Assembly: GCA_022841825.1 (NCBI GenBank)
Contig: JALHQT010000006.1
Coordinates: forward strand, 435,378 to 473,849
DNA length: 38,472 bases
Direction: 5' to 3'
Origin: Anaerolineae bacterium
GTDB taxonomy: Bacteria > Chloroflexota > Anaerolineae > Aggregatilineales > Phototrophicaceae
In this document: piece after piece, positions 29,395 through 35,803 of the stretch
How the letters are laid out: each line of letters begins with the position of its first letter
How positions within the stretch are numbered: position 1 is the first letter of the stretch
Made by a program: the position numbers and the translations under genes
The notes under the pieces: model-generated
The model's database searches: none
The model's input: the letters and a program-made list of their open reading frames with translations, nothing else
What the model was told of the DNA's origin: nothing

Positions 29395-31263
29395 ATGGCG
29401 GAGCAACACGCATTCAAAGCAGAGATCCAACAACTGCTCGATATTCTTATCCATTCGCTCTATACCGACCGCGACATTTTCCTGCGCGAACTCGTCTCGA
29501 ATGCGTCGGACGCGCTCAGCAGGCTCCAGTTTGAGCAGTTGACCAATACGGCAATTGCCGACCCCGAGGCATCGCTCTATATCGAAATCAAGGCGGACGA
29601 CGCCGCAGGAACGCTGACGATCAGCGACAGCGGGATCGGCATGACGCGCGATGAGATGATTCAGAATCTCGGTGTGATCGCCCACAGCGGCGCAAAAGCA
29701 TTCATCCAGGCGATGCGCGAGCGCAAAGAAACGAACGTTACGGACGTTATCGGGCAGTTCGGCGTCGGCTTCTACTCCGCGTTCATGGTCGCCGATAAGA
29801 TCCGTGTCGTTTCGCGCTCCTATCGCCCTGAAGAAAGCGCCTTTGCCTGGGAATCGAACGGCGGCGATACCTATACTGTCGAACCCGCCGAACGTGAAAC
29901 ACGCGGCACCGACATCATCCTGACGCTGAAAGACGACGCAAAGAACTATTTGCAGCCCTGGAAGCTGCGCGAGATCGTCCGCCGTCATTCCGATTACGTC
30001 GCGTTTCCCATTCACATCGGCGACGACGAAAAACCCGCCAACAAACAGGTTGCGCTCTGGCGGCAGGAGTCCAAAGAGATCACGGATGAGCAGTACGATG
30101 ACTTCTACAAGATGCTCACCTACGACTTTCAGCCGCCGGCGCACCGCATCCACATGCGCGCGGACGTGCCGCTCCAGTTCTACGCGCTGCTCTATGTTCC
30201 GAACACCGCCGACCGTGCAATGATCATGGGGCGTGAACCAGGACTGAAGCTGTACGCGCGCAAAGTGATGATCGAGGAGCGCAACACGGACATGCTGCCG
30301 GAATACCTGGGCTTCGTCCAGGGCGTGGTCGATAGCGAAGACCTCCCGCTCGCCGTCAGCCGGGAAAGTGTGCAATCCACCCGTATCATCGCCAACCTCA
30401 AGAAGACGCTCACCAACAAAGTCCTGAGCGAACTCAAACGGTTGATGAAGAACAAGCCGGAGATCTACCGCACGGTCTTCACCAACTTCGGGCGCTTGAT
30501 CAAGCAGGGGCTTGTCGCCAGCCCTGACGACGCGAAGGACATCCAGTCTCTGCTGATCTTCCGCAGCAGCAACACAAGCGGCGAAGACCAGGTCACGTTG
30601 GGCGAATACGCAGCACGCATGGCGCGTGGTCAGAAAGAAATCTACTACGTGCTGGCGGACGACGAAAACGGCGCAGCCCACAGCCCGCACCTCGATCCAT
30701 TCCGGCAGCGCGGGATCGAAGTCCTCTACCTGATCGACCCCGTCGATCCTCTGATGCTGATGGGTTTGAGCGAGTATGAAGGCTACAAAGTCCGCAATGT
30801 CGATGAAGCGGACATCGACCTGCAAGACGTCGGCGAGAAGAGTGAAGCAGCCGACGACGCACGCGAACCGGTTGCCGAAGTCAGCTTCTTAGCGCTGCGT
30901 CAGCGCTTCGCAGAGCGTCTGGGTGAGCGCGTCAGCGACGTGCGCGAAAGCAGCACGCTCGTCGGAAGCCCGGCGCGACTCGTCAGCAGCGATACCAACA
31001 GCGCGCGGAACATGTTCCGCGTCAATCGACTGCTGGATCGTGACTACAACCTGCCAGTGAAGATTCTGGAACTCAATCCGCGCCACCCGCTCATTCACAA
31101 TCTGAGCGACATGATTGCGGCAGAAGGCGCAAACAGTCTCATTGACCTGATCGTCGAGCAGGTGTTTGAGACTGCACTGCTGCAAGAAGGCATTCATCCC
31201 GATCCCGCGAGCATGGCGGACCGCCTGACACAAATCATGCAGGCGGCAACCCAGCGCGGGTAG
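29395..31263 (+). CDS. htpG: Chaperone HtpG (Hsp90 family)
   Basis: The 622-residue protein is bacterial Hsp90, an ATP-dependent chaperone. The GHKL ATP-binding N domain is clear: LRELVSNASDAL, DSGIGMTRDE, GVIAHSGAKAF and GQFGVGFYSAFMV. The middle domain includes LPLAVSRESVQ with the catalytic Arg region, and the C-terminal dimerisation domain ends near RLTQIMQAA. Length is normal. ATG 29395 has GAGGTG 9 bases upstream; in-frame codons further upstream lie inside the hairpin and are unlikely to be translated. It converges on the receiver gene with only two bases between the stops. Confidence 0.96.
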   Translation: MAEQHAFKAEIQQLLDILIHSLYTDRDIFLRELVSNASDALSRLQFEQLTNTAIADPEASLYIEIKADDAAGTLTISDSGIGMTRDEMIQNLGVIAHSGAKAFIQAMRERKETNVTDVIGQFGVGFYSAFMVADKIRVVSRSYRPEESAFAWESNGGDTYTVEPAERETRGTDIILTLKDDAKNYLQPWKLREIVRRHSDYVAFPIHIGDDEKPANKQVALWRQESKEITDEQYDDFYKMLTYDFQPPAHRIHMRADVPLQFYALLYVPNTADRAMIMGREPGLKLYARKVMIEERNTDMLPEYLGFVQGVVDSEDLPLAVSRESVQSTRIIANLKKTLTNKVLSELKRLMKNKPEIYRTVFTNFGRLIKQGLVASPDDAKDIQSLLIFRSSNTSGEDQVTLGEYAARMARGQKEIYYVLADDENGAAHSPHLDPFRQRGIEVLYLIDPVDPLMLMGLSEYEGYKVRNVDEADIDLQDVGEKSEAADDAREPVAEVSFLALRQRFAERLGERVSDVRESSTLVGSPARLVSSDTNSARNMFRVNRLLDRDYNLPVKILELNPRHPLIHNLSDMIAAEGANSLIDLIVEQVFETALLQEGIHPDPASMADRLTQIMQAATQRG

Positions 31264-31265
31264 GC

Positions 31266-31700
31266 TCAGGCGCGGACGCGGCGCTTGCCGTTCATCCGTT
31301 TCAGCGCGATATTCCGCAGGATGTCGCGCAGTTCGACGAACTTGGGGAGCGGCTTGTACATCAGCAGATCCGCCTCGGCACGGCTGATGACCACTTTTTC
31401 TTCGTCTGCGGTCAGATGAAACGCGGTCATCAGCACCACCGCCACGTTCTTGAGCAGCGGGCTGCTGCGCATTCGTTCGGCGACCATGACGCCATCGATA
31501 TCGCCCGGCAGCCGCAAGTCGATCAATGCGAGAGCGGGGATTTCTTCGCGGATGATGCCCGCTTCAACCTCTTCGATCCAGGTGACAGCTTCTTCCCCGG
31601 TGGCAAACGCGACCTCATTGACCTCCAGGACGCTCGACATCGCGGTCAGCATTTCGTACAGATCGGGTTCATCTTCGACGATCATATAAGTCATGGTCAT
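31266..31700 (-). CDS. Stand-alone receiver-domain protein
   Basis: The 144-residue protein is a single CheY-like receiver with no output domain. The acidic pocket is VEDE, the phospho-acceptor is Asp61 in LIDLRLPG, the switch Thr is in VLMTAF, and the conserved Lys is in LLMYKPLP. A basic tail (LKRMNGKRRVRA) ends the protein. I prefer ATG 31700, with AAGGA about 11 bases upstream, over ATG 31694. It lies 34 bases downstream of the LutC-like gene on the same strand, so the two probably share a transcript. The kinase partner is unknown. Confidence 0.92.
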   Translation of the reverse strand: MTMTYMIVEDEPDLYEMLTAMSSVLEVNEVAFATGEEAVTWIEEVEAGIIREEIPALALIDLRLPGDIDGVMVAERMRSSPLLKNVAVVLMTAFHLTADEEKVVISRAEADLLMYKPLPKFVELRDILRNIALKRMNGKRRVRA

Positions 31701-31734
31701 GAGTACTGATATCCTTCGCCCTCAAGTAGTCTGC

Positions 31735-32430
31735 TTAACCCGGTTCCTTGATGATGACATATTCGGTTCCTGGTCCGTGTACCCCCAGGATCAATTCCAT
31801 TTCGATGTCGCCCGTTCGACTGGGACCCGTCACGAAGGCGAGGTTGGCGCGCTCATAAACCGTCGCCATGCCGCGCCCACGTTCACCTGCCAGCCAGTCT
31901 TCCAGGCGCGGAACAAGCTGTTCGACGGAGACAACCGCGATCCAGATCGGGGGAAGTACGGTCGGGATGCGTCCCTTGCCCTCACCGCTGCTGAGAACAA
32001 GAGTCCCCGTCAATGCAATCGCTGCGTCAACGCCAGAGATCCCCAGAGTCGCCTTTCCGAAGTGAGCCATCCGCTCCGGTGAACGATCTTCATGAGGCAG
32101 CGGAATCGTCGCTTCCACCCCTGATTCATGCAGGAGCGCCGCCAAACCATCGACCGGGATATGACGAAAATCCCACGTCAGGGCATGGGTAACGTCATGC
32201 TGCACGATCAGCGCACGAATCTGTTCGCGCGCACCCGCATCCCCCTTCACGACGAACGACTGCCCCTTGAGCAGTGCCATCTCATGGACGAAACGCGCAA
32301 CCAATGCCGCGCGATCCATCTCGTCCGCCACCAGCGCGGGCAAATACGTACGCGGACGCGGTGCTGCGTCGTCGAACGGGCGACGAGCAGCGCGCAGCTT
32401 ATCAAGGATGATCGAGCGAGAGTCATTCAT
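31735..32430 (-). CDS. LUD-domain protein, LutC/YkgG-like
   Basis: The protein of about 231 residues matches the LutC/YkgG type of LUD domain. LutC normally works with the iron-sulfur proteins LutA and LutB in L-lactate oxidation. Recognisable stretches are GISGVDAAIALTGTLVLSS, followed by LPPIWIAVVSVEQLVP and the end LILGVHGPGTEYVIIKE. lutA and lutB are not in this window, so it is an orphan here. The start is probably ATG 32430 or ATG 32442; a TATACT -10 box at 32469-32464 rules out an earlier one. The Shine-Dalgarno is weak. Confidence 0.86.
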   Translation of the reverse strand: MNDSRSIILDKLRAARRPFDDAAPRPRTYLPALVADEMDRAALVARFVHEMALLKGQSFVVKGDAGAREQIRALIVQHDVTHALTWDFRHIPVDGLAALLHESGVEATIPLPHEDRSPERMAHFGKATLGISGVDAAIALTGTLVLSSGEGKGRIPTVLPPIWIAVVSVEQLVPRLEDWLAGERGRGMATVYERANLAFVTGPSRTGDIEMELILGVHGPGTEYVIIKEPG

Positions 32431-32463
32431 AACAAACCACATCCAGACGAAATACTGCACAAT

Positions 32464-32469
32464 AGTATA
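32464..32469 (-). promoter_or_regulatory. -10 box of the LUD-receiver operon
   Basis: TATACT reads toward the LUD gene with initiation near 32457. No good -35 box is seen at 16-18 bases. Confidence 0.45.
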
Positions 32470-32565
32470 ACGCACAATTAGTATGCATCATGAGCCGTGT
32501 GAAAAGTGTGAAGAAAAAATGAGCATCACCACGATTATTGGGGTTTCCTGACTGCTTTGCGCTGG

Positions 32566-32571
32566 TATACT
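32566..32571 (+). promoter_or_regulatory. -10 box placed for leaderless transcription
   Basis: TATACT ends 7 bases before the ATG at 32579. Initiation at the normal distance would fall on the start codon itself. No Shine-Dalgarno is visible upstream, which agrees with a leaderless message. Confidence 0.5.
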
Positions 32572-32578
32572 TACACTC

Positions 32579-33127
32579 ATGCAGACATTGACACCCAATA
32601 CCCTGCCCAACTATCACTTCCTCTTTATAGCACCTGGTCTTGGCGTAGAATGGTTCTTTGATGCTGCCCGCCACTACTTCGACCGCTTTCGCCCAACCGT
32701 CGTCACCAATCTGGATTTTGTGCGGATTATCCCCCAGGAATACAGCTTCGCCCTGACGGCGATTGTCCGGCGCGACGCCGCAGCCGATTGGGGCGTACAG
32801 CTTGCCCAGCTTCGCCCAACCGCGCTCTACGACCCCGTCGTCTACGAGACGGTCGAAGACGCAAAACGCACGCTCGACCAGCGCGCCGAATTCAGTCAGC
32901 CGTTTGGCGTTCCGCTCATAAACGAAACTCCACAGGCGGTACTGGAGGAGGGATTGCTGGACAGCATCCCTACCCCGCTCGTCCCAATGCAAAACGCAGA
33001 AGGCTGGGTGACCGTCACGCCCATCCCCACCGTGCCGACGACGCCGACGCCCCCCCCAACGCCGCTGCCGACCGGCGATCCGATCCCCCCGGTCGAGGCA
33101 ACGCCTGGGTCGCTCATCGGCGGTTGA
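32579..33127 (+). CDS. Small protein with a module shared by the next gene and a Pro/Thr-rich tail
   Basis: I do not recognise this 182-residue protein. Residues 11-110 align without gaps with the C-terminal 100 residues of the glycosidase-like protein encoded next. The pattern is YHFL at the start, then WFFDxAR, Y, D, FRP and V, with FG at the end. Residues 111-182 form a Pro/Thr-rich tail (TPIPTVPTTPTPPPTPLP) of the kind used as an extended linker. There is no signal peptide. The start codon has no Shine-Dalgarno and is probably leaderless. The next gene starts 25 bases later on the same strand. The module's function is unknown; a role in substrate or partner binding is a guess. Confidence 0.78.
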   Translation: MQTLTPNTLPNYHFLFIAPGLGVEWFFDAARHYFDRFRPTVVTNLDFVRIIPQEYSFALTAIVRRDAAADWGVQLAQLRPTALYDPVVYETVEDAKRTLDQRAEFSQPFGVPLINETPQAVLEEGLLDSIPTPLVPMQNAEGWVTVTPIPTVPTTPTPPPTPLPTGDPIPPVEATPGSLIGG

Positions 33128-33152
33128 CGCGCGTAGCTACGAAAGGATACTC

Positions 33153-34622
33153 ATGCAGCTCGACGATTACCAGTGGTCGCGCAACCCGCGCGGCATGCAT
33201 GTGATGAGCATCTTCCAGACCCCGCTGCCGATTGAGCGGTATACCGCCATGCGCGCGGGCTGGTGCAAGATTATCGCCGCGGGTTTTGAGTATGTGGACG
33301 ACTGTGCCACGCTGCTCTCACTCGGCATCACCCCGGTCGTGCGTCTGTACCTGGGGCGCTGGGGTGCCGCGCCGATGAACCTGTTCTGGCGCGATGTGAT
33401 GCTGGCATTCCGCAGTGTCGGGGTGCGCTGGTTCGAGTTTTACAACGAGCCAAATCTGGATGTTGAATGGCCCATGGGTACCGACCCGGATTGGCGCAAC
33501 TTCGACGGGATGATCAAGCCGTTGATGGACAACTGGCTGACCTGGGCGGAATTCACCGTCAGCATCGGCGGCTATCCTGGTTTCATCCCGCTGGCGGAAA
33601 GCGATAACCTACCTTATGCCGCCGTCCGCTGGATGGACGAATTCCTCAACTACCTGCACCGCGCGCACAAGGAACGCTTTCGCGCCGTCCTCGCCAACGG
33701 TGCCTACTGCGCGACGCATCCTTATATCCTGAATCACTTCTATCAGACGGTGCCCGGCGGCGGACCGTTCGCTCTGCGTCGTCCGGAAGAGCAGCGTGCG
33801 GACGAACCGGGCTGGCACTTCGAGTATCCCTACGATCCGGTCTGCCAGCGCAGCGACCCGGGACGCACGGTCTACGGCGGCACCGCGCAGACGCCGAACG
33901 GAGACCCCGTCGGTTTAATCGCGATGGGGCGCATGTTCAACGAGCGCTGCGCCATGCTCTTCGGCTCACAGGCGATCCCGGTCGTGGGGACGGAAGGCGG
34001 CATCTGGCCCTTCCGCAATGGCGTCTTCCAGCAGGATACGCGCTACCCCCCTTACACCGAACAGAATCATCCGGAAGCCACCGCCGCCATGTTCAAGTGG
34101 ATCGCGGAACAGGCACCCCCCTGGTTCTTCGGGCTGGCGCTCTGGAAAGAAGATGAGTACTACGCGCCGGACGCCGTACGCGCCATCGGGCGCATGGGGG
34201 AACTGCCCGTCGTCGCCAAAGCGGTGCCTGCGCTGGATACGATGGGCACGACAGTGGTCATCGCGGACGATGTGCGTCCGCTCGCCAGCTACGGACCCGG
34301 TCCTATCCAGGGTACCGCGACTTACCACTTCCTCCTGCTCGCGCAGGGCTTGGAGTCAAGCTGGTTCTTCGACACGGCGCGCGCATACTGGGACACCTTC
34401 CGCCCGATTGTGACGACCGACCTCAGCCTGATCGATTTCGTCTCGTTCCAGGAAAGTGTCGCCATTACGATCATTAGCCCGCCGGATTTGATGCCCACGC
34501 TCTCGCTTGCCGCCGCCATACCTTATCCCAATGCCTATCTTGACCTGATCACGGCAACCGATAGTGACGAGATCGCGCGCATCTTCAGCGAGCGCGTCGC
34601 CGTCAATCGACGCTTCGGATGA
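33153..34622 (+). CDS. Glycoside-hydrolase-like protein with C-terminal shared module
   Basis: The 489-residue protein has an N-terminal TIM-barrel-like region (about 1-350) with features of clan A glycosidases. Glu99 in RWFEFYNEPN fits the acid/base residue at the end of strand 4, and Glu281 in VVGTEGGIWP fits the nucleophile of strand 7. The two Glu residues are about 180 apart. The exact GH family is not clear. Residues 390-489 are the module also found in the preceding small protein; it ends at the last residue. No signal peptide is seen, so location is uncertain. AAGGAT precedes ATG 33153 at good spacing. Confidence 0.8.
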   Translation: MQLDDYQWSRNPRGMHVMSIFQTPLPIERYTAMRAGWCKIIAAGFEYVDDCATLLSLGITPVVRLYLGRWGAAPMNLFWRDVMLAFRSVGVRWFEFYNEPNLDVEWPMGTDPDWRNFDGMIKPLMDNWLTWAEFTVSIGGYPGFIPLAESDNLPYAAVRWMDEFLNYLHRAHKERFRAVLANGAYCATHPYILNHFYQTVPGGGPFALRRPEEQRADEPGWHFEYPYDPVCQRSDPGRTVYGGTAQTPNGDPVGLIAMGRMFNERCAMLFGSQAIPVVGTEGGIWPFRNGVFQQDTRYPPYTEQNHPEATAAMFKWIAEQAPPWFFGLALWKEDEYYAPDAVRAIGRMGELPVVAKAVPALDTMGTTVVIADDVRPLASYGPGPIQGTATYHFLLLAQGLESSWFFDTARAYWDTFRPIVTTDLSLIDFVSFQESVAITIISPPDLMPTLSLAAAIPYPNAYLDLITATDSDEIARIFSERVAVNRRFG

Positions 34623-34673
34623 CGTGACAGCGCTCGCAGGACGGTGTAAGCTAGAACAATGCCAGCGTTTACA

Positions 34674-34740
34674 ATGGACGGCTTTTATGCCGCCCCTACG
34701 CGTCCCTACTCCTGTAGGGACGCCAATTTATGGCGTCCGT
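34674..34740. repeat. Pair of palindromic intergenic repeats
   Basis: Two elements face each other. The first is GGACGGC with GCCGCCC followed by CTAC. The second is GTAGGGACGCCA followed, after 5 bases, by TGGCGTCC. Between them GTCCCTAC-TCCT-GTAGGGAC (34702-34721) is a perfect 8-bp inverted repeat. The rest of the 179-base gap (34623-34801) has no supported gene. Confidence 0.72.
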
Positions 34741-34801
34741 AGTCATAATTCGAATGACGGCATAGAACTGCGTTTTTTGTAGCGCTTTGTGAGATGACGA
34801 A

Positions 34802-35803
34802 ATGGCGACGGAAACGACGTGTGAGGTACTGATTGTCGGCGGAGGGTTAGCGGGCTTAATGGCTGCGCGGACACTGCTGCACGGCGGTCACAAGGTGATC
34901 CTCCTGGATAAGGGGCGCGGCGTGGGCGGTCGTCTGGCAACCCGCCGCGTGGGAAATGGCGTGGCGGATCACGGCGCGCAGTTCTTCACCATGCGTGATC
35001 CGGAATTCAAGACTCTGGTCGATGGCTGGGTCAAGCACGACATCGCCTACGTCTGGTCAATGGGATGGAGCGACGGCAGTCTTGCGGACACTCCGCGCGA
35101 CGGGCATCCCCGCTACGCCGTCAGCGGCGGTATGAACGCTCTGGCGAAGCTGCTCAGTCAGGGGTTGGACTGTCGGCTCGACACCCAGGTGACGGCGCTG
35201 CGCAAAGGGAACGACGAATGGGTCGTGGAGACCTCCACTGGCAGCAGCTATCGCGCCCATGCCGTCCTGATGACCGCGCCTGTCCCCCAGACACTTGCGC
35301 TGCTGCGGGCGGGCAGCGTCGTACTCCCAGAGGATGCAGCATCGGCGCTGGAAGCCATCACCTATGATCCATGCCTTTGTGGGCTGTTCCGGATCGACGG
35401 CGATGTCTACCTGCCGGAACCGGGTGCGCTCCAGCGCCCATATGCCGAAATCGCCTGGATCGCCGATAACCACCGCAAAGGCATCTCGCCCAATGCCCGC
35501 ATCCTGACTCTGCACGCCAGCCCCAGCTACAGCCGCGCCCATTACGACGACTCGGACGAGATGCTCGTCAACCGCTTCCGCGCCGAGCTTGCCTCGTTCA
35601 TGAAGACGGACGCGCATATCCTCGAAGCGGAGATCAAACGTTGGCGTTACTCACAGCCGTCGGCGCTGTATCCCGAACGCTGCCTGGTGATACGCGAGCA
35701 AAATCTGGTCTTCGCGGGGGATGCATTCGGGGGACCGCGCATCGAAGGGGCGGCGCTTTCCGGCATCGCTGCCGGGCATGCCTTACATACATTGTGGGAT
35801 TGA
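34802..35803 (+). CDS. Renalase-like FAD-dependent oxidoreductase
   Basis: The 333-residue flavoprotein resembles the renalase-like branch of the amine oxidase family. The dinucleotide-binding motif is LIVGGGLAGLMAA (Gly13-18), with Asp36 and then the GRGVGGRLATRR motif (38-49) that contacts FAD. DHGAQFFT is a typical early segment. The C-terminal FAD motif is LVFAGDAFGGPRIEGAALSG. Such enzymes oxidise amines or nicotinamide forms; the substrate here is unknown. Downstream there is a palindromic repeat and then an enoyl-CoA hydratase gene. Confidence 0.88.
   Translation: MATETTCEVLIVGGGLAGLMAARTLLHGGHKVILLDKGRGVGGRLATRRVGNGVADHGAQFFTMRDPEFKTLVDGWVKHDIAYVWSMGWSDGSLADTPRDGHPRYAVSGGMNALAKLLSQGLDCRLDTQVTALRKGNDEWVVETSTGSSYRAHAVLMTAPVPQTLALLRAGSVVLPEDAASALEAITYDPCLCGLFRIDGDVYLPEPGALQRPYAEIAWIADNHRKGISPNARILTLHASPSYSRAHYDDSDEMLVNRFRAELASFMKTDAHILEAEIKRWRYSQPSALYPERCLVIREQNLVFAGDAFGGPRIEGAALSGIAAGHALHTLWD

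Follow-up and report, generated by a model that had tools for sequence, protein, structure and literature searches.

Hydrolases whose working partner is a free copy of their own accessory domain have, to our knowledge, been described mainly among phage endolysins, in which one gene makes both forms. In CTP1L, a free C-terminal domain is produced from an internal start, complexes with the full enzyme and modulates it (PMC4777826), and LysP7951 is an endolysin active as a complex of both polypeptides (PMC9430671). Can a similar arrangement exist on a bacterial chromosome, with the two forms encoded by two genes? Here, we describe a pair of adjacent genes in a stretch of 38,472 nucleotides from an Anaerolineae bacterium (GCA_022841825.1, contig JALHQT010000006.1, positions 435,378 to 473,849; hereafter the window), in which a real and so far unnamed domain family shows an unusual split arrangement: one copy of the module is borne by a small protein with a Pro/Thr-rich tail, and the other is fused behind a glycosidase-like barrel (Table 1).

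Table 1. Features of the gene pair, with the remote third module protein of the same genome in the last line.
Feature	Position	Strand	Basis
Gene for free-module protein, 182 aa (module and Pro/Thr-rich tail)	32579..33127	+	ORF
Free (trans) module copy, residues 11-110	32609..32908	+	Alignment and AlphaFold2 model
Pro/Thr-rich tail, residues 112-182	32912..33124	+	Low-confidence part of model
C-terminal peptide TPGSLIGG	33101..33124	+	Member of PG[PSA][IVLA]..G end motif
Gene for 489-aa glycosidase-like protein with C-terminal module	33153..34622	+	ORF
Predicted clan GH-A-type TIM barrel, about residues 4-365	33162..34247	+	AlphaFold2 model; VIA-align matches
Glu99, NEP motif after strand 4, putative acid/base	33447..33449	+	Conservation, strand positions
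Glu281, TEGG, strand 7, putative nucleophile	33993..33995	+	Conservation, strand positions
Linker peptide GPGPIQG, residues 381-387, directly before module	34293..34313	+	Motif GPG[PS][IVLAM]xG
Enzyme-fused (cis) module copy, residues 390-489, up to stop	34320..34619	+	Alignment and AlphaFold2 model
Third module protein, L168, 641 aa (module, M23, SH3_3, Cellulase)	G000:C6:3713-5635		

The gene for the 489-residue protein starts 25 bases downstream of the free-module gene, both being on the plus strand. The initial annotation had aligned residues 11-110 of the smaller protein with residues 390-489 of the larger one without any gap, and had counted 34 identities in 100 positions, 21 of which are concentrated in the N-terminal 35. 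These counts are right and far beyond chance: the local alignment scores 154, compared with a maximum of 60 and a mean of 35.8 (sd 5.1) in 1000 shuffles. The sharing of a domain by the two adjacent genes is also borne out by blastp between the two proteins (E = 7e-16), and by hhalign between profiles of 49 free and 67 fused copies, which gives a probability of 100 (E 5e-45, 101 columns). As had likewise been described, the module is followed by a Pro/Thr tail in the 182-residue protein, where the model has low confidence, and ends at the stop codon in the 489-residue protein. At the DNA level, 138 of 300 positions are identical between the two module stretches, and identity is lowest at third codon positions (32 of 100, versus 51 and 55 at the other two). 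Because third codon positions have diverged most, the two copies in the window are to be read as an old homology of proteins and not as a recent duplication of DNA. The genome of the window contains exactly two close copies of the module, namely this pair, and one remote copy, which is found at E 0.003 with a profile built without it.

How old, then, is the split between free and fused copies? Module trees, built on about 100 columns and leaving many forks unresolved, set the free copies apart from the fused ones, and one supported set of 44 rows contains 43 of the free copies together with a single fused copy of the long form. The AU test does not speak against one origin for the whole set of 49 free copies (p = 0.436), and the free form needs 3 changes, compared with a mean of 40 after shuffling; it needs 4 if two rows left out after the first tree are included, namely L140, a barrel gene cut at its 5' end and miscalled free, and the fused copy of L103, which has a long branch. 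The split is probably older than the families of the order and not a local event in the window, and the free and enzyme-fused copies are, to judge from these trees, two old paralogous lineages that one order of Chloroflexota has maintained side by side. Thus, the notion of a duplicated domain used in trans and in cis is right in that free and fused copies are both real, but a local duplication has to be replaced by two old paralogous lineages; a recent one is ruled out by the module tree together with the third-position divergence.

An AlphaFold2 model of the free module, made from an alignment of relatives, has a pLDDT of 94-98 in each ten-residue block of residues 11-110, with the predicted order b-a-a-b-a-b-a-b-a (E12-17, H24-29, H31-37, E40-42, H45-50, E57-63, H65-78, E83-88 and H92-104). 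The C-terminal module of the 489-residue protein was modelled with its helices and strands in the succession seen in the free copy, shifted by about 379 residues, and it is in this sense of matching elements, not of a superposition, that the structure prediction suggested in the initial annotation gives the same fold for both copies. The module is predicted to be a small Rossmann-like fold. A structure search with the free copy gave generic Rossmann-like matches, the best of which (Z 7.7) is a designed protein, and no family is prominent among them. The C-terminal domain of CTP1L (5a6s) is one of these structural matches, at Z 5.9 and 2.7 A over 78 residues with 10% identity, where a Z under 8 may reflect merely a common arrangement. 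In a viral structure library, nothing came below E 0.029 with the free module.

By sequence, no NCBIfam or PHROGs family is matched by the window proteins, even with E allowed up to 1, and their sole Pfam match is DEC-1_N at E 0.53, on the Pro/Thr tail. For 24 module sequences collected with a wider profile (A7, see below), the best Pfam match is APP_N at 0.003 in one member, the rest being 0.057 or worse. Neither the module nor the barrel received a name in searches of Pfam, NCBIfam, PHROGs, PADLOC and PDB sequences, solved structures gave no usable match to the module by sequence, and no earlier description of the module was found in the open-access literature, which is weak evidence for novelty. 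A shared domain outside the known families is supported by the profile searches, in which no Pfam, NCBIfam or PHROGs family was matched; the structure database search gave generic Rossmann-like matches, and no named binding module was matched.

Clan GH-A (4/7) is defined by the positions of the acid/base and the nucleophile on strands 4 and 7 of the barrel. In the 489-residue protein we find a TIM-barrel fold, modelled by AlphaFold2 with a pLDDT of 92.6, as well as the positions of an Asn-Glu acid/base and a Glu nucleophile: strand 93-95 comes before Glu99, and strand 277-283 holds Glu281. N98-E99 and E281 are invariant in 58 of 58 aligned barrel proteins (A4), and in a wider set of 69 barrel proteins E99 is kept in all 69, and N98 and E281 in 66 each. 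The 50 rows shown by VIA-align place the barrel with GH39, GH5, GH128 and GH1 at Z 16.6-18.1 over about 225-277 residues, in agreement with the clan A-like barrel that had been noticed in front of the module. The host protein is thus predicted, from its model and the conservation of its residues, to be a clan GH-A (4/7)-type barrel with a conserved catalytic glutamate pair. It is similar to members of GH5, GH39, GH128 and GH1 in the NEP Glu after strand 4 and the Glu on strand 7. It is unlike them in that none of the 58 aligned members of its family has a Pfam match better than E 0.023, and in the weak E-values that Foldseek itself assigns, the best of which (8e-4) goes to methylenetetrahydrofolate reductase, an unrelated TIM barrel.

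The nucleophile is gone, according to the alignment, in 3 of the 69 barrel proteins (it is intact in L130:6306 and L124:6001), so that catalysis seems dispensable in some of them. Four long barrel relatives of 742-903 residues (L118:4269-6494, L121:7609-9966, L130:3709-6306 and L136:4263-6971) have a long acidic linker before the module, and three of the four have lost both the nucleophile, reading TAGG or TTGG, and the Asn of the NEP motif. In relatives at the level of the phylum (L175, L176 and L178), the NEP position reads SEP, GEP or PEP by eye, and these barrels are possibly inactive.

A pattern-based scan of one genome per species gave 67 loci. Names within Chloroflexota (Chloroflexi, Anaerolineae, Anaerolinea, Aggregatilineales, Ardenticatenia etc.) are attached to 65 of them, and the other two are labeled Pleurocapsa, probably wrongly, the contig apparently coming from a genome of the window's own genus, and Bacteroidetes; in L135 of this set no module is seen because the locus ends there. 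The 67 loci partly overlap with a second set, 101 genomes related to that of the window, so that counts from the two are not independent. In the latter set the module is present in 58 genomes, 52 of which have two or more copies, and the six single-copy genomes are all under 90% complete. If only the 64 genomes of good quality are considered (at least 90% complete and at most 5% contaminated), all 33 with the module were seen by eye to combine a short form (open frame of less than 300 aa) with a barrel form (more than 440 aa), and the remaining 31 give no module match. Eleven genomes have two barrel proteins beside a single short copy.

In nine genomes the short and barrel genes do not share a contig. 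For six of these nine (G003, G012, G071, G072, G095 and G099; G077 and G091 were left out, and G065 may be a contig break), the DNA flanking the free gene shows no module-barrel gene beside it. In the 45 linked pairs examined, including that of the window, the short gene precedes the barrel gene on the same strand; the gap is 18 bases or less, overlaps included, in 31 of the 45, and 2308 bases in one pair (ORFs cut by a contig end are excluded from these gap counts and from the tail and linker counts below). The expected recurrence of the module in linkage to glycosidase-type domains is seen in many genomes. When ORFs around the 67 loci were clustered, no neighbour family was found at more than 13 loci, antisense frames over the pair aside, and an operon with other genes was rejected on this ground. 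The recurring neighbours, named by a Pfam scan of one representative per cluster, are a TauE/SafE-type ORF upstream (13 loci) and a CinA-type ORF downstream (12 loci), both at a roughly fixed place, an ABC-transporter ATPase (10 loci) and a proline dehydrogenase (9 loci). In the window, the upstream slot where relatives at 13 of 67 loci have the TauE/SafE-type ORF is taken by a LUD-domain gene (31735-32475, minus strand). No RNA feature reached gathering cut-offs in 31200-35000, and the barrel protein had no plasmid match.

Why should a free and an enzyme-fused copy of one domain be kept together? The reading we prefer, with a probability of about 0.4, is that the module is a pairing domain, by which the free subunit and the GH-A-type enzyme form a heteromeric glycosidase. 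A retaining glycosidase of GH-A type, without a recognisable signal peptide, would bear one C-terminal module, and a second gene would supply the same module as a separate subunit in many members of the order. The two modules would then pair to give a heteromer of free subunit and enzyme, possibly 1:1 or higher, and the free subunit would set assembly, stability or activity of the enzyme, as the free cell-wall-binding domains do in two-polypeptide endolysins. Pairing fits the data because the two forms are present or absent jointly, are retained even when their genes are apart, include one free form beside two barrels, and have relatives with tandem modules (two at the N-terminus of L160, and two at the C-terminal end of the DNA examined in L179). 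Module-module binding, peptide docking and enzyme activity are inferred. A role in protein pairing would also fit the co-occurrence better than binding of a glycan or a surface does.

The co-occurrence could alternatively reflect two independent roles of genes that are inherited together. If the free form were a paralogue with a different job, having only ancestry and inheritance in common with the fused one, it would be natural that the two lineages stand apart in the tree with 34% identity in the window, and that the genes lie apart in at least six genomes. Against this, the two forms are present or absent together in the 64 good-quality genomes, 33 with both and 31 with no match, and we take separate roles to be quite unlikely.

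In a part of the order, the pairing of modules may be supplemented by a peptide. The Pro/Thr tail is present in the family of the window and is short or absent in most sequences of the order's other families. Of 35 tails of 40 residues or more, 32 contain the motif PG[PSA][IVLA]..G, one dot being optional, in their last 14 residues (e.g., PTPGPITGG), whereas 2000 shuffling rounds gave 0.16 on average and never more than 2; the sequences are related and thus are not independent events, and Pro/Gly-rich stretches ease such resemblance. The enzyme side has a similar peptide: GPG[PS][IVLAM]xG stands directly before the module in 54 of 69 barrel proteins, the other 15 being without the strict motif. 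At L076:7134-8567, linker and module look as if they moved as one unit: a GPGPIH stretch and a module follow a barrel to which the window family's barrel profile gives no match. The recurrence of a PGP[I/V]xG-like peptide, closing the free tail and standing in the enzyme linker, suggests a docking peptide: the end peptide of the tail (core PG[PS][I/V/L]), resembling the enzyme linker, may dock in the same place. Docking is not a general solution, since in 13 of the 48 free proteins examined the tail is shorter than 40 residues, and just 2 of these 13 contain the core PG[PSA][IVL].

The presence of a similar motif in the free tail and the enzyme linker could also mean that the two compete for one site. 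The free module would then be a competitive regulator or inhibitor, which turns the enzyme off by taking the site of the enzyme's own module, whether on the barrel or within a multimer. That the genes are closely linked in most of the pairs examined is in favor of this. The direction of such an effect is not indicated by the data, however, and the free form is kept both when the genes are apart and when it has no tail; an inhibitor is, to our mind, distinctly improbable.

The module is not confined to the order of the window. The profile of free and fused copies (A5) has weaker matches in other Anaerolineae as well: with E 0.01 as the limit it hits 49 of 396 genomes of the class, a count that takes in the window's order. 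A wider profile (A7) matches in 78 of the 101 relatives and in 10 of 301 genomes across the phylum; as A7 includes the third copy of the window's genome and other members of the wider family, these match by construction. By hhalign, the wider family is related to the free and the fused copies with probabilities of 99.4 and 99.6, the members compared having themselves been chosen through A5. Most matching genomes outside the order show, within the limited sensitivity of the search, one module and no free partner, and pairing is therefore not universal.

Reading of twenty loci of the wider family revealed two arrangements: the module is C-terminal to barrel-like regions in L149-L154, L161 and L163-L165, and N-terminal to an M23-like region, in some cases with SH3-like and/or GH-like regions, in L155-L160, L162 and L166-L168. 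A Pfam scan of thirteen of these proteins found Peptidase_M23 in L155, L156, L159, L160, L162, L166 (below the curated cut-off), L167 and L168, SH3_3 in L156, L159 and L168 above the cut-off and in L166 and L167 below it, and a Cellulase domain in L166, L167 and L168. L168 is encoded by the window's own genome, and its M23 motif looks degenerate by pattern. The five scanned proteins with a C-terminal module (L149, L153, L161, L164 and L165) had nothing above a Pfam cut-off. The barrels of L149, L153, L161 and L164 are read from motifs, and that of L165 matches the window family's barrel profile at E 2e-82, which links the C-terminal-module group to the window family. RadC genes are seen upstream of module-M23 genes in two families (L160:3068-3784, directly in front; L162:4681-5394, one ORF away). 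In one other genus, the module gene is located directly behind a sulfatase gene (PF00884; L149:6714-8327 and L152:3133-4836), a hint of a sulfated glycan. As for the substrate, the M23/SH3 fusions, together with the sulfatase gene in that genus, point to a glycan that is sulfated or part of the cell envelope.

Is it then the module that binds a glycan or peptidoglycan and thereby targets the attached hydrolases, the free protein being a separate lectin-like or anchoring protein? Fusion to Peptidase_M23, SH3_3 and Cellulase-type domains is typical of envelope hydrolases, the two relatives behind a sulfatase gene are in line with such a function, and the module has conserved aromatics, Y24 being invariant and W16 and F18 conserved at 90% or more in the alignment of free and fused modules (A5). 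On the other hand, the fold matches are generic Rossmann ones without a named binding module, and a hydropathy scan of residues 1-45, a crude one with an arbitrary cut-off of 1.8 and no positive control, picked out a signal-peptide-like stretch in none of 68 barrel proteins and in 3 of 47 short ones; thirteen proteins of the wider family were all below 1.5. Since such stretches are missing, as far as this crude scan can tell, surface glycan binding is unsupported, and so is the initial annotation's proposal of a glycan or a surface partner, for which no named binding module was matched either. Glycan binding is possible, but we think it on balance unlikely.

Hydrolase-type domains without recognisable signal peptides would also be explained if the proteins were cargo of a contractile injection system or a phage-like particle, with the module as a loading tag, and sheath genes are indeed found in 41 of the 101 relatives. 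However, 25 of the 58 module-bearing genomes have a sheath match, as do 16 of the 43 that lack the module, which by eye is no clear association, and the genome of the window has the pair and no sheath match. Viral sequences gave no relative in the scans made: the profile of free and fused copies (A5) found none in a single pattern-based scan of viral contigs, and neither did the search of phage records with the third module protein of the window's genome nor that of the viral structure library with the free module. A cargo role, with a sheath family not associated with the module, is not supported and appears to us hardly credible.

Returning to pairing, a more far-reaching version can be imagined, in which this Chloroflexota domain family would serve GH-A and M23 hydrolases without signal peptides quite generally, as a module for pairing. 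In one order the pair would be split over two genes, and the tail peptide would imitate the linker and dock across the complex, making a two-gene heteromeric glycosidase of a new GH family. Taken as a whole, this extension is unlikely.

What does the gene pair tell us when placed beside known systems? The module offers an entry point to a set of hydrolase-like proteins in which no signal peptide is recognisable, from a lineage that is mostly uncultured, and to a family of GH-A type that looks unclassified. Like the envelope hydrolases that combine Peptidase_M23 with SH3_3, the module relatives that precede M23 and SH3_3 domains, one of which is in the window's genome, have these two domains; unlike in those hydrolases, these relatives show no signal-peptide-like stretch, and the module itself belongs to neither family. 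The two-polypeptide endolysins are the closest parallel. In CTP1L and LysP7951, the free domain forms an assembly with the full-length enzyme and influences its activity, whereas for the window such assembly is proposed. The free endolysin domain comes from an in-frame internal start, whereas the free form in the window has a separate, old paralogous gene on the chromosome, its module being 34% identical to the fused one. The pair is not a member of the endolysin group, because its two forms are separate genes and no viral or phage match appeared in the searches made. What it has in common with CTP1L and LysP7951 is a hydrolase-type protein whose C-terminal domain also exists free, and, if pairing is true, a chromosomal two-gene version, long retained by many members of one order, would show that ordinary bacterial enzymes, too, use a principle of the endolysin type.
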